Positions 4,702-39,289 of a stretch of 41,176 nucleotides of DNA are shown here, in pieces; within the stretch, counting starts at the first letter, position 1; every line of letters starts with the position of its first letter. The notes below the pieces were generated by a model. That model had not been told where the DNA came from. It made no database searches and saw only the letters and a program-made list of their open reading frames with translations. This DNA comes from an uncultured Bacteroidota bacterium (GTDB taxonomy: Bacteria > Bacteroidota > Bacteroidia > Flavobacteriales > Flavobacteriaceae), in the NCBI GenBank assembly GCA_902622575.1, contig CACNQJ010000010.1, positions 1 to 41,176 of the forward strand, read 5' to 3'. The translations under genes were made by a program, and so were the position numbers.

Positions 4702-4713
4702 CAAAGTTTATGG

Positions 4714-4740
4714 TTGGGTATCAAGTTTTATGATATTCAA
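4714..4740 (+). other. stem-loop downstream of tRNA-Glu
   Basis: TTGGGTATCA (4714-4723) and TGATATTCAA (4731-4740) form a 10-bp stem with two G-U pairs around a 7-nt loop. The G-U pairs hold only for plus-strand RNA. No T-run follows, so it may be a processing or 3'-end element rather than a full intrinsic terminator. Confidence 0.4.
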
Positions 4741-4757
4741 TAAATTAAACATTAAAA

Positions 4758-4789
4758 TTGTTTACAGATATAAAAAACTATTATATTTG
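4758..4789 (+). promoter_or_regulatory. promoter for rpsT
   Basis: TTG at 4758-4760, a 21-nt spacer, then TATATTTG at 4782-4789, an exact TAnnTTTG -7 box. The rpsT ATG follows 23 nt after the box. Confidence 0.65.
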
Positions 4790-4812
4790 CTGAGCTAAAA
4801 TTTAAATACAAT

Positions 4813-5112
4813 ATGGCAAATCATAAATCAGCTCTCAAAAGAATACGACAAACTAAAACTCGTAATACTAAAAATCGATTACAGCATAAAACAACTAGAA
4901 ATGCAATAAAGGTTTTAAAAGAAACGACAAATAAAAAAGAGGCTGATAAGTTATTTACTGATGTAACATCACTGCTTGATAAACTCGCAAAAAATAATAT
5001 TATTCACAAAAATAAGTCAGCAAACTTAAAGTCAAAACTTTCTAAGCACGTAAATAGTTTGAAAGTAGTAAAAAAGGCTGCTAAACCAAAAACTAAGAGT
5101 TCATCGAAATAA
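4813..5112 (+). CDS. rpsT: 30S ribosomal protein S20
   Basis: A 99-residue, strongly basic protein starting [17 protein letters not shown], the S20 signature, followed by the Lys/Arg-rich helical body and a Lys/Ser tail. S20 binds 16S rRNA early in 30S assembly. The length is slightly above the usual 83-90 residues because of the C-terminal [13 protein letters not shown] tail. It has its own promoter. Its last 20 nt overlap the 3' end of rho on the opposite strand, and no terminator hairpin is visible between the two. Confidence 0.97.
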
Positions 5113-16795: not shown

Positions 16796-16821
16796 TACTA
16801 TTATTTTATAATCAGATATAT

Positions 16822-16829
16822 TATATTAG
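16822..16829 (+). promoter_or_regulatory. possible -7 box (TATATTAG) for tRNA-His
   Basis: TATATTAG followed by C lies 13 nt before the tRNA 5' end, one mismatch from TAnnTTTG. No -33 TTG is visible. Confidence 0.35.
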
Positions 16830-16842
16830 CGAACTCAAAAAT

Positions 16843-16917
16843 GGTGGTTGTAGTTCAGTTGGTTAGAACGCCTGATTGTGGTTCAGGAGGTCGCCGGTTC
16901 GAGTCCGGTCTTCCACC
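16843..16917 (+). tRNA. tRNA-His (anticodon GTG)
   Basis: Cloverleaf with the extra 5' G (G-1 at 16843), D-stem GTTC/GAAC, anticodon stem CCTGA/TCAGG around TTGTGGT (anticodon GTG), and T-arm GCCGG-TTCGAGT-CCGGT. The discriminator is C. The acceptor GTGGTTG against CTTCCAC pairs at five of seven positions; two adjacent T-T mismatches (5-68 and 6-67) are visible. CCA is not encoded. Confidence 0.94.
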
Positions 16918-16928
16918 CAAACTTTTTC

Positions 16929-17111
16929 ATGATTGATTTTTCATTTACATGCCCTTATTGTTGGGAATTACAAAATAAGCTTGTAGATCCATCAGTATTT
17001 GACCAGTCCTTTATTGAGGACTGTGAAGTATGTTGTAATCCTATATCTTTTAATCTAAAAATTAGTGATAACATGGTTGTACAATCAGACGTATTCTCAA
17101 TTGAACAATAA
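16929..17111 (+). CDS. CPXCG-type cysteine-rich small protein
   Basis: A 60-residue protein of the CPXCG family. CPYCWE (Cys8, Cys11) near the start and CEVCCNP (Cys32, Cys35, Cys36) make a zinc-ribbon-like four-Cys site. The length matches the family. The frame is open back into tRNA-His, but the family starts at this ATG (16929), 11 nt after the tRNA. It is therefore probably translated from the 3' part of a tRNA-His transcript after tRNA processing. Function is not established; metal binding is likely. Confidence 0.83.
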   Translation: MIDFSFTCPYCWELQNKLVDPSVFDQSFIEDCEVCCNPISFNLKISDNMVVQSDVFSIEQ

Positions 17112-17132
17112 AAACTTATATATTTATTGTCT

Positions 17133-30197: not shown

Positions 30198-31113
30198 CAT
30201 CAATTTTTTTTAATAATTCAATAACATGATCTTTTTTAAATTTTTGGGATAATTCAATCGAAAGATCTTTTCTTAAATTCTTTGATGAAACTTTATGCCG
30301 AATCGACTTTTTACCGTCAAGTGATAGCACTATTCCATCCAAAAAAAGTGTATTGTCTTTTATGTAGGAATATGCTCCAATGGGATAATTACATCCACCC
30401 CCCATCTTTTTCATAAAATTCCTTTCATTTGTTGTACAAATCATAGTTTGTTCGTGATTTATTTTGGAAACAAATGCTGTAGCTTCAAGGTTATCAATAT
30501 TTGTTTCAACTGCAATTGCGCCCTGACCCGGTGCATTTAAAAATGAATTTAATTCAAAATATTCTGTTATGTATTGTTCTAAATTTAATCTCTCAATTCC
30601 TGCAGCTGCCATAACTAATCCATCGAAATTACCATCAATCATTTTATTTATTCTAGTGCCAACATTTCCTCTAACATCAATAATATTTAAATTCTCATTC
30701 AAACTTAAAATCTGTGCTTTTCTTCTTAGTGATGTGGTACCAATTATGTCATTCTTAGTAAAATCTTGAATTCGTTTTTTATGATTACTTAGAAAAACAT
30801 CTTGTGGATTCCCCCTTTTTAAAACGGCGGATAACCTTAGTTTGTCAATTTGCTCGACAGGCATATCTTTTAAACTATGAACTGCTATATCAATTTTGTT
30901 TTCCAATAATAAATGCTGAATTTCCTTCACAAAAAAACCTTTATCCAAGTTTCTGTCCAGAGGCTTATCAAGTAGTATATCACCTTTTGTTTTTACCTCT
31001 TTTATCTCAATTATCAGATTTGGAAAGTTTTTTTTTAACTCTTTTTTTACTAAATGTGTTTGATAAAGAGCTAATTTACTTGTTCGGCTTCCAATGATAA
31101 CTTTATTTTTCAT
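30184..31113 (-). CDS. hemC: hydroxymethylbilane synthase (porphobilinogen deaminase)
   Basis: A 309-residue enzyme polymerising four porphobilinogens. The N-terminal IIGSRTSKLALYQT, FVKEIQHLLLENKIDIAVHS with SLKDMP, the GTTSLRRKAQ substrate-binding segment, and the dipyrromethane-cofactor cysteine Cys241 in KKMGGGCNYPIGAY are all intact. The start overlaps the hemA end by 11 nt; the end overlaps hemD. Confidence 0.97.
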   Translation of the reverse strand: MKNKVIIGSRTSKLALYQTHLVKKELKKNFPNLIIEIKEVKTKGDILLDKPLDRNLDKGFFVKEIQHLLLENKIDIAVHSLKDMPVEQIDKLRLSAVLKRGNPQDVFLSNHKKRIQDFTKNDIIGTTSLRRKAQILSLNENLNIIDVRGNVGTRINKMIDGNFDGLVMAAAGIERLNLEQYITEYFELNSFLNAPGQGAIAVETNIDNLEATAFVSKINHEQTMICTTNERNFMKKMGGGCNYPIGAYSYIKDNTLFLDGIVLSLDGKKSIRHKVSSKNLRKDLSIELSQKFKKDHVIELLKKIDDEIK

Positions 31114-32368
31114 TTAGGAAAATTTGATTTATAATTTCAATTGCCCTTTCATCTTTTCCATTATTACTAGCCTTTTTTATTTTTTTGACTAGATTATTTG
31201 AAAACTTATCATAAACCTTACTGAGGTGAGAATTTAGGTCGTCACCATTTTTCTGTTCCGAGTAGTAATCTTCAATATTGTTCAGTGTTTCATTTACTAT
31301 TAATTCACGCACTTGTTTTTTTAAAGACAAAATTGAGGGTCTTAATGATCTCGCATTAGTCCAATCATCAAATTCAACTAAAAATTCTTCTATATACAAT
31401 TCAGCTTTAATAATTTCTCCTTTTCTCTTTTTATAATTTTCATTTACAGCATCTTTGAGATTGTCAACGTTAATTACTTCAACATTCTCCATATCATATA
31501 AATCACTTGATAAATTTCTGGGTACTGATAAATCAACTAAAAGAAGTTTTTTTTCTCTACCGTTCATTATTTCTAATAAATCAGATTTACTTAAAAGTGT
31601 GTTTCTTGAGCTGGTTGAAAATATAACAACATCACAGTTTTTTATTTCATTTTTAAAATTTCTAAATTTTATTGATTCATATCCAAGCTCTTTACAAAAA
31701 TCAGTTGATTTTGATTCGGTTCTATTAGTGATTTTTATGTTTTTAATATTTTTTCTGTGTAAGTGTCTTATTGATAATTTTGATGTTTCACCAAGTCCAA
31801 CACACATGAAATTAGATTCCGATAAATCATATTTTTTGGTGATTTGCTCGACTGCAGCATAGCTTACAGAGACAGCACCTCGGCCAATGTCAGTGTTTGT
31901 TCTTATATATTTTCCAGTTTCAAGAGACTTCTGAATCATTCTTCCTAAAATTGGTCCAAGCATTTTATGCTTTTTTGAAAAGTAGTAAGCATCTTTAAGT
32001 TGTTCAACTATCTGAAATTCTCCAATAATCATTGACTCTAAACCTGAAACAAGTCGAAACAAATGGTTGGCAACATTGTATGAGCCTGTAAGATTATTTA
32101 AGTAAGGAGACAAGCTGTCTTTGTAGCCTTTAAAATCTACAAGTTCTTTTACGATAGTATGTAAAAATTTTTTTTCTTCTCCTACGTGATTTTCAAATTC
32201 AAAATATATTTCGGTTCGATTACATGTTGATATCATCATTAATCCCTCAACACCAACCTTTTTTTTGAGTAGATTATTAAAAACAATTTTTTCAGAATTG
32301 TCAAAGTAAAATTTTTCTCTTATTTCTAAGGGAGCAATTTTGTAGTTAATGCTGATTAGTCCTACCAA
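31103..32368 (-). CDS. hemA: glutamyl-tRNA reductase (start uncertain, TTG)
   Basis: First enzyme of the C5 heme pathway, reducing glutamyl-tRNA-Glu to glutamate-1-semialdehyde. It shows NYKIAPLEIREKFYF, the catalytic-Cys motif MMISTCNRTEIYFE, the substrate segment MIIGEFQIVEQLKDAYYFS, the NADPH-binding VGLGETSKL and a helical dimerisation tail. No ATG is available. The frame opens with TTG at 32413, but that codon lies inside an exact TAnnTTTG promoter-like box, and a second such box follows. The TTG at 32368 gives MVGLISINYKIAP, a 421-residue protein with the catalytic Cys at 49, as in family members (about 48-50). It is the first gene of the nine-gene heme operon. Confidence 0.92.
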   Translation of the reverse strand: MVGLISINYKIAPLEIREKFYFDNSEKIVFNNLLKKKVGVEGLMMISTCNRTEIYFEFENHVGEEKKFLHTIVKELVDFKGYKDSLSPYLNNLTGSYNVANHLFRLVSGLESMIIGEFQIVEQLKDAYYFSKKHKMLGPILGRMIQKSLETGKYIRTNTDIGRGAVSVSYAAVEQITKKYDLSESNFMCVGLGETSKLSIRHLHRKNIKNIKITNRTESKSTDFCKELGYESIKFRNFKNEIKNCDVVIFSTSSRNTLLSKSDLLEIMNGREKKLLLVDLSVPRNLSSDLYDMENVEVINVDNLKDAVNENYKKRKGEIIKAELYIEEFLVEFDDWTNARSLRPSILSLKKQVRELIVNETLNNIEDYYSEQKNGDDLNSHLSKVYDKFSNNLVKKIKKASNNGKDERAIEIINQIFLNEK

Positions 32369-32386
32369 CTTTTTTACTTGATACGC

Positions 32387-32418
32387 CAAATTTACTTTCA
32401 AAGAGATATCCAAAAATA
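32387..32418 (-). promoter_or_regulatory. overlapping -7 boxes for the heme operon
   Basis: Reverse strand TATTTTTG (32418-32411) and TAAATTTG (32394-32387) both match TAnnTTTG exactly. The TTG of the first lies 16 nt before the second, so it may instead serve as its -33 element. Either box fits a start for hemA downstream of 32413. Confidence 0.4.
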
Positions 32419-32461
32419 ACGCTAGAAGGTCTAAAAGTATAGCTATCAGTTCACAGAGCTA

Positions 32462-32480
32462 ATATATAATGATTCTAAAT
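32462..32480. promoter_or_regulatory. imperfect copy of the iron-region palindrome (operator 1)
   Basis: ATATATAAT-G-ATTCTAAAT: the right half is identical to the perfect palindrome at 39267-39289, and the left half matches seven of nine bases. It lies upstream of the hemA promoter boxes and upstream of the candidate plus-strand RNA. Confidence 0.45.
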
Positions 32481-32523
32481 AATAATATCGATAAAAGTTC
32501 TTTTAAATATCATTTTTAAATTA

Positions 32524-32531
32524 TATGTTTG
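32524..32531 (+). promoter_or_regulatory. -7 box for the candidate plus-strand RNA
   Basis: TATGTTTG matches TAnnTTTG exactly. The predicted start is about 32536, which is where operator 2 begins. No TTG is seen near 32501, the expected -33 position, so support rests on the -7 box, the operator and the terminator. Confidence 0.4.
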
Positions 32532-32535
32532 AACT

Positions 32536-32558
32536 TTATTTATAATAATTCTAAATAA
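32536..32558. promoter_or_regulatory. near-perfect copy of the iron-region palindrome (operator 2)
   Basis: TTATTTATAAT-A-ATTCTAAATAA is an 11-1-11 palindrome with one mismatched pair. It has the same right half as the 39267-39289 site and sits over the predicted start of the plus-strand RNA. Confidence 0.6.
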
Positions 32559-32608
32559 CATTTTATTTAGTTAATTTATTATAGTTTTTTCTAGTTCACA
32601 CCTTGAGA

Positions 32609-32649
32609 GGGACTTAGGTATAACTCAGAATATCTAAGTTCCTTTTTTT
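32609..32649 (+). terminator. intrinsic terminator, plus strand
   Basis: GGGACTTAGGTAT (32609-32621) pairs with ATATCTAAGTTCC (32630-32642) over 13 bp around the 8-nt loop AACTCAGA, followed by seven T (32643-32649). The two G-U pairs (32611-32640, 32618-32633) form only in plus-strand RNA. On the minus strand no T-run follows. Confidence 0.7.
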
Positions 32650-33040
32650 AATCGATAAACTTGAGTTTGTATTTTTTGTCAAGTACTGGACAGTTATCGT
32701 ATTTACCAAATATTTTATATCTAATCGAAGCTATAAAATCATAGAAGATGTCACAAATGAAATATGGAATAGCACTTATTAAAAGTCTAGGGAAAAGAAA
32801 TTTTTTTGTTTTTTTGAGAACATAGTGAACAGCTTCTGTTTTTCTAACTAATTTCCCATTTTCCATCATTACAGCAATAGAGTCACTGTTTTTTAAAATA
32901 TGCATGTTTTCTTTAGCAAAATTGCTCTGAAAATTGGAAAACAAGAAAACATTGTCACTATCATTTTTATGTACCCATCTAAAAAATGAATTACACATTA
33001 CGCAAACTCCATCGTAAATGATAATATCTTTTTTTTTCAT
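32648..33040 (-). CDS. DCC-family (DUF393) thiol-disulfide oxidoreductase-like protein
   Basis: A 130-residue protein opening with IIIYDGVCVMCNSFFRW, the DUF393/DCC signature with a CxxC pair (Cys13, Cys16), followed by a thioredoxin-like region and RYKIFGKYDNCPV. Function is not established; the CxxC suggests redox activity. DCC domains are often next to, or fused with, HTTM proteins, and an HTTM gene lies two genes upstream. The ATG overlaps the TonB receptor stop as TGATG, so translation is coupled. It is the last gene of the iron operon. Confidence 0.85.
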   Translation of the reverse strand: MKKKDIIIYDGVCVMCNSFFRWVHKNDSDNVFLFSNFQSNFAKENMHILKNSDSIAVMMENGKLVRKTEAVHYVLKKTKKFLFPRLLISAIPYFICDIFYDFIASIRYKIFGKYDNCPVLDKKYKLKFID

Positions 33041-35460
33041 CAAAACTTTATTTGCATTGTAAAATAGAAATTCCTGGGAGCTGATGGAATAATTCCAGGA
33101 CCTGGATAACCAGTAGCTCTTCTTGTAAAATATTTTTCATTTAAAAAGTTATTTACTCCAGTTTCAAAGCTAAGGTTTTTTAGCTTGTATGTTAATGAAA
33201 TGTCAGCTAAGCCATATTTGGGAATTTCGCCAATTACACCACTTAAATTTCCCTCGACAGCATTAGATGAGTCAGTAAATTGTTTTGAAATAAATGAATA
33301 TTGAAAATTAAATGTCAAATTTTTGAATCCAAACTTTAAACCTGTTTTTAAGTTATGATTCGGAACGAATTCAACTGAGTTGCCTTCGATGCCAACTTGA
33401 TCGGACTTTAAGTACTTAGATTCTATGTATGAATAGTTAATAAAGTAATTAAAATCAATATTATTATTTTTTAATAAAATTTCATTTAAATCAAAATCGA
33501 AGAGTGATTCTATTCCATTTATTCTTGCATTACCAACATTTCCTCTTTCACTTTTAACATTTCCATCAGGAAAGACTTTTTGAATAAATCCAATTCTATC
33601 CTCATACAGTAGCAAGAAAATATTTGCATCATATGAAATTTTTCTTTTGAAATTTCCTCTGAGGCCAAAATCAAACGTGTATCCTTTTTCATCATCAATA
33701 TTTGGGTTTACTGCATAGGCTGGATTTATGGTGCTTATATCAGCGAATGTTACCGACCTGTAGTTTTGACTAATATTTGAGTACATTTCAATATTTCTAT
33801 TTGGTTTATAACTCAAACCCAAGCCAAGAAGAATAAAATTTCTCTTTTTTTCATCAAATTCATCAAATCTCTCATTGTAAATTACATTTCCAGCTCCATC
33901 TAAATTAATTTTTCTGTAAAACCCATCGCTTTTAGTCATAATATTTTCATACCTAAATCCTGGTGTGAGTGATAGGTTGTCACTCAAATAAAAAATATTT
34001 TCTGCAAATAAGGCAATATTTTTATTTGGATAGATGTAATTAGATTGGTTGGTATAATTAGGATATTCAAAGCTTTTAAAATTAAAATCAGCATCACTAC
34101 CATTGGATCCTGGCCCTTGTATGCTTGAGGAATTTGAGTTATAATATTTAAGTCCAACTAAAAAATATGATTTATTTTTAAATGCATTATAATTAGTTAG
34201 AAATCTGGTTTCAAATCCGTGATTTGAAAATTCACCTTTAATTAAGTCTCTCTCAAGACCTGAATCAACCTGACTGACCCTGTTACTTCTAAATCCGAGT
34301 GAATTTCTACTAGCTTCAAGTCCAAAAAAACTAAATGTAAAGTTGGTTCTATCGGAAAATTCCTTCTTAAATTTAATGTTGTATAAAAACCAGTTCACTT
34401 CAAACCAGTTTCTAGATCTATTGCTTTGAAATGGATCACTTTTAAACATTTCATCACTTAATCCTCCAGCCTGTTTAGCTAGGTAGTTCAAATAAGTTAT
34501 TTCAGAACTTAGACTGGTAGTTTGATTAAATGTGTATTCGAGATATTGGAAAGTGTTTACAGATTCGAAATTTGAATTAGCTCTAAAACCATCTCCCTTT
34601 TTATAATTTATGAAACCATAGTGACCAAGTTTTTTACCCTTAGAACTCAAACTGGTGAAATTTGTAAATAGATTATTTGATCCAATAGTATTTCTGGTAA
34701 TTAATTCTAATTTTTTTTCAGGGTTTGGCTTTTTCATTACAAAATTTATCAAACCTCCAAATTGGGTTCCAAATTGGAGTGATGCAGCACCACGTAAAAT
34801 TTGAATTTCCATTAGACCTTCAGCAGGAGGGGTGTAATAGCTCTCAGGGTAACCTAGAGCATCAGCACTAATATCATATCCATTTTGTCTAGTGTTGAAG
34901 TTGGAGGTTCTATTTGGATCCAGTCCACGCCCTCCAATGTTTAATTGTAAGCCTGCATCATCATTTTGGTAAATATTTAGTCCTGGAATTTGATTATAAA
35001 TTTGTCTAGCGTTGTTTGATGCTAAGTTAGCCATTGACAGCTCAAGTAAAATTACTTCATTTTTTTTTCCCGCAAAGACCGAAGTTTCCTCAAAATCTTT
35101 CATCCTTCTAATTTGAAATATTTTTTTCTTATTTGCTCTAACAACAACTTCGTTCAATTCCTCAACCCTAGATGATAACTTTATGTTAAGGTTAGTATTG
35201 ATATTGCCCAATTGTCTAGTAAGTAAAATATAGCCCTGTTGATAAAAGACTATTTCAACTGTATTTTTTTTCTTTGTAAACTTAAAGAAGCCTTCACTGT
35301 TTGTGTAGTATATCTGAGTACTATTATTATCATATATGGCAACATTGGAAATTGGTAGATTTGTTTGTTCATCAAAAACATACCCTGAGACCTCATTTTG
35401 AGCAAAACAAGTATTGATTATTAGTAATAATAATATTTTAAAGTTTATTAATTTTTTCAT
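33040..35460 (-). CDS. TonB-dependent receptor with carboxypeptidase-regulatory-like domain, FecA-like
   Basis: An 806-residue outer membrane receptor. Signal peptide (about 1-20, ending CFAQ), a carboxypeptidase-regulatory-like domain (about 22-95, VSGYVFDEQTNLPISNVAIYD), a plug domain with NLASNNARQIYNQIPGLNIY, LNIGGRGLDPNRTSNFNTRQ and ILRGAASLQFGTQFGGLINF, and a 22-strand type barrel ending in aromatic MQIKF. The plug resembles ferric-dicitrate (FecA-like) receptors. Neighbours (imelysin, Fe(III) ABC transporter, palindromic operator) support iron-complex uptake; the actual ligand is unknown. It overlaps the HTTM gene by 23 nt and the DCC gene by 1 nt. Confidence 0.9.
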   Translation of the reverse strand: MKKLINFKILLLLIINTCFAQNEVSGYVFDEQTNLPISNVAIYDNNSTQIYYTNSEGFFKFTKKKNTVEIVFYQQGYILLTRQLGNINTNLNIKLSSRVEELNEVVVRANKKKIFQIRRMKDFEETSVFAGKKNEVILLELSMANLASNNARQIYNQIPGLNIYQNDDAGLQLNIGGRGLDPNRTSNFNTRQNGYDISADALGYPESYYTPPAEGLMEIQILRGAASLQFGTQFGGLINFVMKKPNPEKKLELITRNTIGSNNLFTNFTSLSSKGKKLGHYGFINYKKGDGFRANSNFESVNTFQYLEYTFNQTTSLSSEITYLNYLAKQAGGLSDEMFKSDPFQSNRSRNWFEVNWFLYNIKFKKEFSDRTNFTFSFFGLEASRNSLGFRSNRVSQVDSGLERDLIKGEFSNHGFETRFLTNYNAFKNKSYFLVGLKYYNSNSSSIQGPGSNGSDADFNFKSFEYPNYTNQSNYIYPNKNIALFAENIFYLSDNLSLTPGFRYENIMTKSDGFYRKINLDGAGNVIYNERFDEFDEKKRNFILLGLGLSYKPNRNIEMYSNISQNYRSVTFADISTINPAYAVNPNIDDEKGYTFDFGLRGNFKRKISYDANIFLLLYEDRIGFIQKVFPDGNVKSERGNVGNARINGIESLFDFDLNEILLKNNNIDFNYFINYSYIESKYLKSDQVGIEGNSVEFVPNHNLKTGLKFGFKNLTFNFQYSFISKQFTDSSNAVEGNLSGVIGEIPKYGLADISLTYKLKNLSFETGVNNFLNEKYFTRRATGYPGPGIIPSAPRNFYFTMQIKF

Positions 35461-36796
35461 TTAAAGGTAATATCCATTTTTTATTACTAAACCCTCTTTT
35501 TTCTTTGAGTAAGTCGATATTTGGATCGATAAATCTCTTACTCATTCGACCATTTAAAGCTACATAGCTGTCAGCGTAAACACCAATATCATTGTAACCC
35601 TCATTTTTATAGTGATCACCAAGAAAATGAGCATATTCAAGTATGAAATCTGGCTGAAAACTCATCTGTCTTTCCTGAAATTCTGTTAAAAATTCATCAT
35701 TCATAACATAAAATGACTTTCCATTCTCATTATTAACAATTTTGAAAGTAGTATAACCTCTTTTTTCCATTAGCATCACTCTCCAAGAAAATCTGTAGCC
35801 TTGTTCATTCCAAAATAATTCACCTGGATAAAAAGCGTATCTAAATGGAAAAACAAATTGAATAATAAAAAATAAAATTACAACTGAAATAGCTAACTTT
35901 TCTCTTTTAATGATAACTCTATTCACTTCTTTTAGATTATTCAAAGTATTCTTAAATGGTTTTAAAATAATATTCAATAATTTTTTATGAGTACTGGAAC
36001 TGAAAAATATCAGTGACGAAACAATCATAATGTAAGGAAACATACCAATTGGAAACAGTATGACAGTAAAAATGTGAAAGAAAACAACTAGTAAAAATCC
36101 GTATATTCTTGTTCGACTATACAACAGTATAAAAGGTATTAAAAGGTCGTAAAACATTCCTCCCCAGCTCATAAAATAGTGAAACCACTCTTTTTGCATT
36201 ATATTGTTACCTATAAATGGTAAATCATAGCTACCTGTAGTTAACCAAATTTTTAATGGTTGAGCTTCTAACAGCCAGTCAGTATTTATTTTTGCTAAAC
36301 CCGCATAGAAGTATACAATAAATAGTAAAAGTTTAATACTATCAACACACCACTTTGGAGTGTATCTGTAAGATTGATTTTTTAAATATGAATCTAATGA
36401 ATAGGATGCATTTGCAGGAAGAAAAATCATTAAAAAACTTAGTATGCTTACAAAGTAATAATGGTTTAAATAAGTCGTTTTATCCATTAGTTCGATATAA
36501 GTAAATGACAGAAAAAATGTTATTATAGAAATATAATATTTGTATCCTACTGCAACAAAAAACGCTGAGATACCACAGATAATAAATAGGATATATGTAT
36601 ATTCCTCTAAAGGTTTAACCCATTCAAATCCAAAAAAACTAAAATGAAATGTTGGCTCAATATATAAAAGTTGTATCCAACCTTTTACAGCAAACCTTAT
36701 GATGCTTATGGTCATTAATAATCCAAAAGCTAGCCTAAAAAAGGCTAGACTAGTGGATTCTTGTCTTTTAGAGAAGTAAGATTGGATAATTTCCAA
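35438..36796 (-). CDS. HTTM domain membrane protein (vitamin-K-dependent carboxylase-like)
   Basis: A 452-residue integral membrane protein with about eight or nine helices and the segment DKTTYLNHYYFVSILSFLMI (about 105-124), the hallmark of HTTM/VKGC-like proteins in flavobacteria. A soluble C-terminal part (about 325-452) contains RFSWRVMLMEKRGYTTF. Relatives of eukaryotic gamma-carboxylase have no known bacterial activity here. The start is TTG at 36796; no nearby in-frame ATG is better. It lies 16 nt downstream of the imelysin gene and overlaps the TonB receptor by 23 nt, so it belongs to the iron operon. Confidence 0.85.
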   Translation of the reverse strand: MEIIQSYFSKRQESTSLAFFRLAFGLLMTISIIRFAVKGWIQLLYIEPTFHFSFFGFEWVKPLEEYTYILFIICGISAFFVAVGYKYYISIITFFLSFTYIELMDKTTYLNHYYFVSILSFLMIFLPANASYSLDSYLKNQSYRYTPKWCVDSIKLLLFIVYFYAGLAKINTDWLLEAQPLKIWLTTGSYDLPFIGNNIMQKEWFHYFMSWGGMFYDLLIPFILLYSRTRIYGFLLVVFFHIFTVILFPIGMFPYIMIVSSLIFFSSSTHKKLLNIILKPFKNTLNNLKEVNRVIIKREKLAISVVILFFIIQFVFPFRYAFYPGELFWNEQGYRFSWRVMLMEKRGYTTFKIVNNENGKSFYVMNDEFLTEFQERQMSFQPDFILEYAHFLGDHYKNEGYNDIGVYADSYVALNGRMSKRFIDPNIDLLKEKRGFSNKKWILPLNEKINKL

Positions 36797-36812
36797 AGTT
36801 GAAAATTATTTT

Positions 36813-37940
36813 TTAATCTCCATCTGCATCAGTATAATCAACCTGAATACTTAATAATGATAACATATTAGTTTTGAGGTTAACTACTATTGCTTGTAAT
36901 TTATTGAAGGCATTCATCATTTTCAATTGATCGTTATTTATTTGTGTAATAAAATTTCCGTCCAATTGATTGACAGCTTGTTTAGCTTCCTGAAAGTTAT
37001 TAATAATCATTGGACTTAGGTTTTCTTTATTTACATCTGATGCATGAATATAGTCCAAATACGTCTTTAGGCTGGCTCCCATTGCTCCGGTTAAAGATTT
37101 GCCAGTAAAGAAATTTTCTGAGGCTGTTACGGCCTCCATTGCTAAAATTTTTGAAACATCTTGAAAAGCATTTTTTGATGAATAGTATGCTTCAACCTTT
37201 GTGGGTAGGGCATCACCGCCTGAGTATCTTCCAGCTGGTATACCAATTTTATTAGCTCTTAAACCTTTTTCAAAATAGTATACAAAATCATTTGTTATCA
37301 TGTTTAATGAGCTAGTATTTGAATTTCCTGATGATTGTATAAACGAATCCTTAGTGCTGGACCAGTCCTGAATAATATCATTTGTATTTTTTACCATTAC
37401 ATCAACTAGAACTTTTAAATAGTTCCCGTATTTTGAGTCATTAGAATATACATTTGATACACTTTCAAAATCAGTAGCAACTCCATGAATCAAGTAGTCT
37501 ATTGCAGGAAATCCTTGGCTTGTAAAATCATTAGGACTATTTATATCAGTTTTTTCAGAGGATACATTGGCTTCAATTCTTGAGTTATCAGCGGGATAAG
37601 CATTCATTTTTTGCAAATACATTAACTCTTCAGCTTTTCCAATGTTGAACATCTCAATATGTTGCCATTTTTTATAGGACTCAAGCCAGTCATCATGTAG
37701 TTTTTGTAAGTTTCCTGTGTTTGGGGTTTGAGTGAAATCATCAACTGCTATTTTTAAGCCGTCAAGTGCTACTTTAAAATCACCGTATCTAGGTATTATA
37801 ATATTGGACACATAATTATTCAAAATAGTTGAACGGTCAAATTCTGGAATTTGATCTGCATCATCATCGGTATCACCAGAACAAGCAATAATTAAGAAAA
37901 TTGAAAACAGGGCAATCAGTGTATATTTAATTTCTTTCAT
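36813..37940 (-). CDS. imelysin-family surface lipoprotein
   Basis: A 375-residue protein with lipobox IIAC (Cys20) followed at once by the acidic run SGDTDDDAD, which resembles the surface-export signal of Bacteroidota lipoproteins. The imelysin fold regions are visible, including WLESYKKWQHIEMFNIG and SQGFPAIDYLIHG (about 141-153). The GxHxxE metal motif of EfeO/IrpA reads GFPAID here, as in many flavobacterial imelysins. The family is linked to iron uptake. I chose ATG 37940 because the frame's earlier ATG at 37967 lies inside a terminator hairpin. TonB receptor and HTTM genes follow. Confidence 0.88.
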   Translation of the reverse strand: MKEIKYTLIALFSIFLIIACSGDTDDDADQIPEFDRSTILNNYVSNIIIPRYGDFKVALDGLKIAVDDFTQTPNTGNLQKLHDDWLESYKKWQHIEMFNIGKAEELMYLQKMNAYPADNSRIEANVSSEKTDINSPNDFTSQGFPAIDYLIHGVATDFESVSNVYSNDSKYGNYLKVLVDVMVKNTNDIIQDWSSTKDSFIQSSGNSNTSSLNMITNDFVYYFEKGLRANKIGIPAGRYSGGDALPTKVEAYYSSKNAFQDVSKILAMEAVTASENFFTGKSLTGAMGASLKTYLDYIHASDVNKENLSPMIINNFQEAKQAVNQLDGNFITQINNDQLKMMNAFNKLQAIVVNLKTNMLSLLSIQVDYTDADGD

Positions 37941-37945
37941 ACTAT

Positions 37946-37984
37946 AAAAATAAAAAAACAGTGGCATAAAATACCACTGTTTTT
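37946..37984 (-). terminator. intrinsic terminator inside the iron operon
   Basis: AAAAACAGTGG (37984-37974 on the minus strand) and its perfect complement (37964-37954) make an 11-bp stem around a 9-nt loop, followed by TT-A-TTTTT. It lies between the DUF4856 stop and the imelysin ATG, only 5 nt before the latter. On the plus strand the hairpin has only a short T-run, mostly in the stem. Confidence 0.7.
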
Positions 37985-38015
37985 AATATTAATTAAAATA
38001 ATTTTTCACAAATTA

Positions 38016-39233
38016 TTAGATGTTAAACTTAGATTTGATTGTTGAAATCATTGAATTTAATTTGGCGTTATCAATATTCCAAAAGTCACCTAAATTAGCT
38101 AACATTGCATCAACTTCAGCACCTGAAAAATATGGTTTATCAGTACCATCGTTAGTGAACTGAAGGCTTTGAATAAATCCATATCCTTCTGAAAGTGCGT
38201 GGAAAGCATATCCTGTATCTCCACCTGCCATTTTACTCATATAACTTTCTAAATAGTCAACAGCTTTGAAAGCTATAACTTTAGAAAGATGTACTTTGAT
38301 AATGTTAGCTTGCGCATCTCTAACTTCGTAGTTACCAGCAACAATTGCAGCTCTACCTAATTTAAATGCATCAAATACGATTTGACCCATAGGATCACCA
38401 GATTTAGCACCTGAAACTTGATCAGCATTTATTTTTTTGAAATATTTCATTAGCAATGTGCCCTCACCACCGGGAGCAGATCCAAGATCAGCTCTTGTTA
38501 CATCGGGCTCCTGTCCGTATAAATATCCGAATCCTTCATCCCATTTATGTTCCATATTAGTGTAATTTTTTCCACTAGCAGTAGTTCCTGCGTCATTTTC
38601 ATCTCTGTAACCAGGGGCATCTAATTTACATGGTAAGATGTAGTTATTGACAATTTGGTCAAGTGCCATACCACCAATAAGACCTTTAACGAAAAGTTGA
38701 TCGAGTTCATGGCCTTTACTGTTAACGTGTATAACCTTTGATGGATCAGAAGTGTATGCTATTCTACCAGATGTACCAGAAACTGCATCTCTGTTATACT
38801 CAGTAGTCGAGCCTAGCTCAGTTGCAAATTCCTTTAACAAGTTGTCCATAAAAACTTGAACAGATGCACCTGTTGTAGTATTACAACCGGAACCAGTTTT
38901 AGATCTTACTTTTTTACCAGTACCATTTAATGTTCCTGTCATAAATCCATCACCGTCAGCAAACATTGATTTCAATTCAGCTTCAGTTTTGAAAACAGGC
39001 TTTCCGCCATCTTCGTCCTTGAAATTTAAATAATTGTAGATTGCGTCAACTTGATTCAACCTAGTTGTTTGTCCTGAAAATGATACAGTTGATACACCAT
39101 CTCGTGTAAATTCGTATGTTGCAGGAGCAACAACTTCATTTACTATATCATCCTCATTGTCATCACAAGCAATGAATAACAACGGGAAAATTAATAGTAA
39201 AAAATATTTTGAAATATTAGTATAATTTTTCAT
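38016..39233 (-). CDS. DUF4856 surface lipoprotein
   Basis: A 405-residue protein with lipobox FIAC (Cys23) and acidic residues directly after it (DDNEDD), again like a surface-lipoprotein export signal. DUF4856 is recognised by FVKGLIGGMALDQIVNNYIL, MEHKWDEGFGYLYG (about 228-241) and HALSEGYGFIQSLQF (about 347-361). The family occurs with imelysin and TonB receptors in flavobacteria, and a role in iron capture is inferred only from this company. It is the first gene of the operon, behind the palindromic operator, and is followed by a hairpin terminator. Confidence 0.85.
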   Translation of the reverse strand: MKNYTNISKYFLLLIFPLLFIACDDNEDDIVNEVVAPATYEFTRDGVSTVSFSGQTTRLNQVDAIYNYLNFKDEDGGKPVFKTEAELKSMFADGDGFMTGTLNGTGKKVRSKTGSGCNTTTGASVQVFMDNLLKEFATELGSTTEYNRDAVSGTSGRIAYTSDPSKVIHVNSKGHELDQLFVKGLIGGMALDQIVNNYILPCKLDAPGYRDENDAGTTASGKNYTNMEHKWDEGFGYLYGQEPDVTRADLGSAPGGEGTLLMKYFKKINADQVSGAKSGDPMGQIVFDAFKLGRAAIVAGNYEVRDAQANIIKVHLSKVIAFKAVDYLESYMSKMAGGDTGYAFHALSEGYGFIQSLQFTNDGTDKPYFSGAEVDAMLANLGDFWNIDNAKLNSMISTIKSKFNI

Positions 39234-39266: not shown

Positions 39267-39289
39267 TTATTTAGAATTATTCTAAATAA
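39267..39289. promoter_or_regulatory. 23-bp perfect palindrome, probable metalloregulator operator
   Basis: TTATTTAGAAT-T-ATTCTAAATAA is a perfect 11-1-11 inverted repeat in the 110-nt gap between the divergent iron operon and the Fe(III) ABC transporter genes. A 9-1-9 core is the architecture of Fur boxes; the sequence itself also recalls DtxR-like sites. Two imperfect copies lie near hemA. Which regulator binds is not visible. Confidence 0.65.

Follow-up and report, generated by a model that had tools for sequence, protein, structure and literature searches.

A predicted Fur-repressed small RNA gene between heme-synthesis and iron-uptake genes of an uncultured flavobacterium

What occupies the 234 nt (32414-32647) that separate genes for heme synthesis from genes for iron uptake in this uncultured, probably marine flavobacterium? 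The window, the whole stretch of 41,176 nucleotides that was analyzed, is contig C10 of a 1.27 Mb genome that is 82% complete, and the original prediction had placed in this gap a small RNA repressed by a metalloregulator. Judged from sequence comparison, the gap likely holds the gene of a Fur-repressed, trans-acting sRNA. That it yields a real, Fur-controlled RNA of whatever function appears highly probable, and the chances that iron sparing in particular is the role of this RNA are about even.

The locus and its promoter

The neighbors of the gap, assigned through Pfam, bear out the predicted position between iron uptake and heme synthesis. For the TonB receptor in the iron-uptake run, the nearest models are siderophore and FecA models, and it scores under their cut-offs. 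The gap had also been called the longest of the window; its length is as claimed, but its rank depends on annotation, because 16796-17126 is longer but contains tRNA-His, and 4703-5092, after tRNA-Glu, is also longer unless a 99-aa open reading frame at 4813 is real. The features are as follows, with the Riemerella Fur box taken from the available text of PMC5609570:

31103-32413, minus strand: hemA (glutamyl-tRNA reductase), heading a hemA-hemC-hemD-hemB run (Pfam GlutR_N, Porphobil_deam, HEM4, ALAD)
32462-32480, no strand: predicted Fur box A, on the hemA side, with 16 of the 18 fixed positions of the Riemerella consensus on the minus strand
32524-32531, plus strand: -7 promoter box TATGTTTG of the TAnnTTTG class, exact in 9 of 11 homologues and there at a constant distance from the operator
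32536-32558, no strand: predicted Fur box B, over the predicted transcription start, with 17 of the 18 fixed positions of the Riemerella Fur box
32536-32649, plus strand: predicted small RNA of about 114 nt (covariance model R1 in 11 of 23 genus genomes; fold z -5.44)
32540-32584, plus strand: predicted 5' helix, in which 32540-32548, part of the operator, pairs with 32576-32584 (UUAUUAUAG)
32585-32608, plus strand: predicted single-stranded linker with core UUCUAGUUCACAC at 32589-32601, a candidate pairing region
32609-32649, plus strand: predicted intrinsic terminator, stem 32609-32621 / 32630-32642 and T run 32643-32649
32648-33043, minus strand: DCC1-like gene, the last of the iron-uptake run
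32648-39233, minus strand: iron-uptake run of DUF4856, imelysin, HTTM/VKGC, TonB receptor and DCC1-like genes (Pfam)
39269-39287, no strand: predicted Fur box C, between the iron-uptake operon and an ABC-transporter binding protein, 18 of 18 and identical to the Riemerella box

All elements that the original prediction had listed lie where it put them, but it overlooked the weaker box A. The promoter box that it read on the plus strand is an exact TAnnTTTG, the near-perfect 23-bp palindrome at 32536-32558 has 3 mismatches to its own reverse complement with the center base counted, and a weaker second palindrome, which contains box A, spans 32460-32482. Among the eleven homologues found in the genus (see below), TAnnTTTG stands 2 nt before the CTTTATTT of the operator in nine, the free bases being TG, AG, CT or AA, and the remaining two boxes differ by one change at the last G (G001, TAAGTTTA; G006, TAAATTTT). 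The corresponding box of Flavobacterium psychrophilum occupies -12 to -5 in the available text of PMC9723704, which would set +1 at 32536 and the Fur box at +1 to +23. The lack of a visible -33 TTG, conceded from the outset as a weak point, still stands and extends to most homologues: a TTG at a distance that would suit a -33 element occurs only in G019 (18 nt ahead of the -7 box), G006 and G021 have one 12 and 23 nt ahead of the box, and the other 8 of the 11 have none within the 50 nt examined.

On the other side of the gap, the start of hemA, located by eye, is probably the TTG of 32368-32366, and a -7 box TAAATTTG lies at 32394-32387. This start leaves Fur box A about 90 nt upstream, and repeats resembling CGCTAGAAGGTC / AGCTATCAGTTC lie between the hemA -7 box region and box A (window 32366-32480).

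Fur boxes and the candidate regulator

The case for a metalloregulator rests on the likeness of the palindrome to the predicted Fur box of Riemerella anatipestifer, ATTTAGAATTATTCTAAAT, a member of the same bacterial order. In the available text of PMC5609570, purified R. anatipestifer Fur bound fragments of four such promoters in gel shifts, and the individual sites tabulated there vary considerably. This supports the expectation that the RNA is metalloregulator-repressed, box B being a predicted site that matches a gel-shift-supported box. Within the 23 genomes of the genus, the operator pattern with at most one mismatch gives 42 strand matches at 24 places in 16 genomes, compared with 1 match for the reversed pattern in the same genomes. 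Eleven of these places are box B and 13 are others, of which 12 were inspected, ten in fetched loci and two, both box A (G020 and G001), in the alignment, with G003:C5:75270 left out. By eye and without a family search, the inspected places adjoin hemA, the DUF4856 operon and its ABC binding protein, as well as another TonB receptor, a FeoB-like gene and a DCC1-like gene; one, in G016, lies near an IMP-dehydrogenase-like gene. In the window's own genome, a search allowing two mismatches returned 9 operator places versus 7 for the control on each strand, and thus only the window's three sites can be taken as convincing in that genome.

A FUR-family search of the incomplete genome gave a single match (G000:C3:31014-31370), which falls below the cut-off of all ten NCBIfam models that it matched and whose best solved relatives are Fur proteins. 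From this sequence evidence, the regulator acting at the palindrome would most likely be Fur.

The only FUR-family protein found (L049:1480-1926, minus strand) reads HDHIILTDTGEVIEFC and has no CxxC after HDH; in Fur proteins a CxxC usually follows the HDH.

Structure, conservation and history of the RNA

The predicted start and the end of the terminator give a transcript of about 114 nt, close to the 110 nt first proposed. The RNA of 32534-32649 folds with z = -5.44, equaled by 0 of 200 shuffles. In its 5' part, all 9 helix pairs form in all 11 homologues, 7 of them invariant and 2 varying on one side, and because the changes are one-sided only, this helix is the weaker evidence. The linker that follows is unpaired up to 32604 in the predicted fold, and its core reads UUCUAGYUCACA across the carriers in the genus. 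A small encoded peptide would be an alternative: G009, G004 and G007 have an ATG in common at position 65, and in G021 one occurs at 80. ATG is missing from 7 of the 11, however, and GTG from all of them, and we give a peptide a negligible chance.

The 13-bp hairpin with seven T on the plus strand is confirmed, and its alignment passes the proposed check for compensatory change, with two-sided changes in 7 of 12 pairs. Paired cells make up 97.8% of 229, compared with 38-50% in slid versions of the alignment. None of 500 shuffles reaches the terminator's paired share, its two-sided-change cells or its covariation score, and 12 of 500 reach its number of pairs with two-sided changes; further pair types, at 14, lie below the shuffle mean of 16.0 and are reached by 491 of 500. 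These counts are not probabilities, since the aligned sequences are related. Across the homologues the stem contains nine G-U cells, no A-C cell and five U-U or C-U mismatches, and the nine wobble cells with no A-C cell mark the RNA as plus-strand. In this window, both G-U pairs of the stem form on the plus strand only, as had been predicted (-15.0 kcal/mol for plus vs -7.9 for minus), and in 10 of 11 homologues the plus-strand fold is the better one, the minus strand being equal in G009. The T run is weak in 3 of the 11 (G012, G006 and G021), where the stem is followed by no more than TTTAA. When 31100-35500 was scanned for terminators by a simple method, none was listed; we suspect that extension of the stem into the T run caused this miss.

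The hairpin could instead end the minus-strand DCC1 operon, with the promoter-like signals being chance. It does come directly after the DCC1 stop codon, and the minus strand too gives stable folds (-9.6 to -17.7 kcal/mol), but the minus side has no T run, the wobble pairs suit the plus strand only, and a conserved -7 box and operator lie upstream, which makes this explanation highly improbable. As originally stated, no plus-strand gene feeds the terminator.

Conservation of box, palindrome and hairpin in relatives had been set beforehand as a test, and the claim withstood it within the genus. hemA was found in 16 of the 23 genus genomes and the whole RNA unit in 11 of their gaps; four more readable gaps (G022, G011, G003 and G002) have box A without the unit, and the sequence of G008 ends within hemA. 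The covariance model R1 recovers the same 11 genomes (E 2e-15 to 5e-12), the next matches having E >= 0.24. With strict filters, its search of 397 family genomes, only three genus members being among the rows listed, gave 2 matches, both in-genus, and none outside the genus; distant copies may be missed because the filters were strict. Over 35 sources it gave 10 matches, all among the eleven carriers, which add no evidence because these genomes were already counted. Mean identities between the two main groups of homologues single out the same elements: 0.98 for box B, 0.94 for the UUAUUAUAG strand and 0.88 for the first 17 nt of the linker, compared with 0.29 in the 8 nt after the linker, 0.32 in the terminator loop, 0.67 at -60 to -30 (partly box A), 0.50 just before the -7 box and 0.52 in the spacer.

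In a HemA tree of 38 rows, the 11 carriers and the 4 non-carriers form one group (support 89/82) without resolution inside it, and the history of the RNA fits either one gain or a gain and a loss. At eight distant loci (L104-L110 and L116), hemA faces a DUF4856-like gene by eye and 7 of the 8 have two sites with at least 14 of 18 positions; the -7 box follows the operator there, whereas it precedes the operator in this genus.

By eye, the iron operon is inverted in this genus relative to the same distant loci, its genes reading towards hemA. In L088 (G012) and L090 (G007) the linker type of the RNA is discordant with the HemA tree, a pattern that exchange of the gap through recombination between lineages would produce.

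These arrangements bear on a reading in which only the DNA matters: box B would act with box A to aid Fur control of hemA at a distance, and the RNA would be the by-product of an orphan promoter. Boxes A and B lie about 76 nt apart in one gap on the hemA side, and two boxes also occur near hemA in distant genera. Such a reading leaves the conserved linker, the covarying terminator and the fixed -7 box unexplained, however, and box A accompanies hemA without box B in four genomes of the genus. We therefore regard it as improbable.

Candidate targets, mechanism and known systems

Several features expected of a stand-alone Fur-repressed sRNA are found at this locus as predictions: a Fur operator at the promoter, a promoter of its own, an intrinsic terminator and no conserved reading frame. 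Under the favored reading, iron-loaded Fur would bind box B over the start and block transcription, as the identity and place of the box suggest. When iron is scarce, Fur would release the DNA, polymerase would start near 32536 from the TAnnTTTG box, and transcription would stop at about 32649, the start and stop being predicted and both conserved. The exposed linker would then most likely pair with mRNAs, those for iron-using proteins first, and the pairing would lower their translation in a response that spares iron, as with RyhB or FsrA. Because the transcribed operator is also a strand of the 5' helix, one stretch would be both DNA switch and RNA structure. The fuller proposal, an independently evolved iron-sparing sRNA of Bacteroidota whose transcribed Fur operator forms one strand of its 5' helix, is put forward tentatively, at somewhat less than even chances.

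Target searches give this role little that is shared among carriers. The complement of the linker with wobble allowed, TGTGRRYTRGRR, has 54 matches in the 11 carriers (11 of them the locus itself) compared with 56 for the reversed control. Of the other 43, the majority fall inside long open frames or on the strand opposite to them; one is found far inside the same coding gene in six carriers (L131, L144, L146, L147, L149 and L164), one precedes the same small gene in three (L118, L161 and L163), and none is common to the carriers as a whole at a gene start. Pairing was scored at eight sdhC, eleven leuC-like and eight aconitase starts, after exclusion of three partial sdhC genes (G009, G013 and G001) and of the G006 aconitase, for which no ATG was found; some of the scored starts may be wrong because the first ATG of the frame was taken. 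sdhC (z -0.37 to 0.98) and leuC-like genes (z -0.72 to 1.99) are at chance. For aconitase, three carriers that share a linker type give z -2.56, -2.51 and -1.75 and the remaining five 0.25 to 1.53; with linker II it ranks 12, 15, 39 and 42 of 315 fetched-locus gene starts, and far lower in other groups. The suggested check against iron-enzyme mRNAs, run on these three families, thus yielded a signal for aconitase in one linker type but nothing conserved.

The sdhA leader was rejected as a target: it scores -23.2 in G004 and -20.7 in G009, but the pairing requires the mRNA to leave a gap of 14-15 nt, and the other carriers do not preserve it.

The succinate dehydrogenase flavoprotein SdhA (L170:2289-3626, G000:C14) has an in-frame N-terminal extension of about 100 residues that resembles an integrase Arm DNA-binding domain (Pfam Arm-DNA-bind_5, E 4.6e-4, 21.1 bits vs a cut-off of 22.6). 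The extension occurs in 7 of 299 family genomes from 6 genera, five of them in open frames of 767-791 codons, and the leader between sdhC and sdhA (L169-L178) has repeated UGUGUUA / UAACAC motifs that are kept across carriers. Together, the leader motifs and the DNA-binding-like extension suggest, speculatively, an SdhA that regulates itself.

The absence of anything conserved among the classic iron-enzyme targets would also suit a real, Fur-controlled RNA whose main work is something other than iron sparing, such as binding a protein or tuning the iron-uptake mRNAs made alongside it. In G012, G006 and G021, a TonB receptor gene that has a Fur-like box of its own carries GUAGAGCUAGA in its leader, at about -30, and this matches the linker; the pairing has -15.1 to -15.8 kcal/mol and ranks 5, 6 and 9 of 315 for that linker. 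It is limited to one of three linker types, however, and a leader made together with its repressor would be unusual, so that we give such a role a small chance.

For the favored reading of a Fur-repressed sRNA we count the same box beside iron-uptake genes in the window and in relatives, the specificity of the operator (42 vs 1), the -7 box in 9 of 11 homologues, the whole unit in 11 of 23 genomes, the terminator's covariation and plus-strand wobble, a linker core conserved above its flanks and the absence of a feeding gene. Against it we count the missing -33 TTG in most homologues, the weak T run in 3 of 11, the equal strands of G009, the one-sided 5' helix and the further pair types below the shuffle mean. 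On the same side are the failure to find the unit outside the genus with strict filters, the four readable gaps without it, linker complements no commoner than the control and the lack of conserved pairing to any tested iron enzyme.

Fur-repressed sRNAs are a standard component of iron control in Proteobacteria, where RyhB, PrrF and NrrF/HrrF are examples, and in Firmicutes, where FsrA (Bacillus) and IsrR (Staphylococcus) spare iron; that such RNAs can originate independently is known. The candidate shares with the proteobacterial RNAs a stand-alone gene, a Fur box at the start site, an intrinsic terminator and predicted induction at low iron, but differs in its Bacteroidota -7 box, in its linker and in having no Rfam match up to E = 1. 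No Rfam match appeared among 4227 families over 31000-34000, so the label "RyhB-type" given at first fits the predicted control logic but not descent. With FsrA and IsrR it shares control logic and small size but no sequence match, the comparison having been made via Rfam only, which may not include those families. Closer to home, the Rfp RNAs of F. psychrophilum, including Rfp18, are likewise stand-alone, structured flavobacterial RNAs with TAnnTTTG promoters; unlike the Fur control predicted here, Rfp18 acts on metalloproteases in the available text of PMC9723704, and the word Fur is absent from the main text of that paper. In the open-licence literature, to which this check was mostly confined and whose text was available in part, no description of a Fur-repressed sRNA in Bacteroidota was found.

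If the reading is true, RNA-based iron control would have arisen anew in a phylum whose RNA regulation is little known, and would sit in small-genome, probably marine bacteria, and the conserved linker core would make tests of targets direct.
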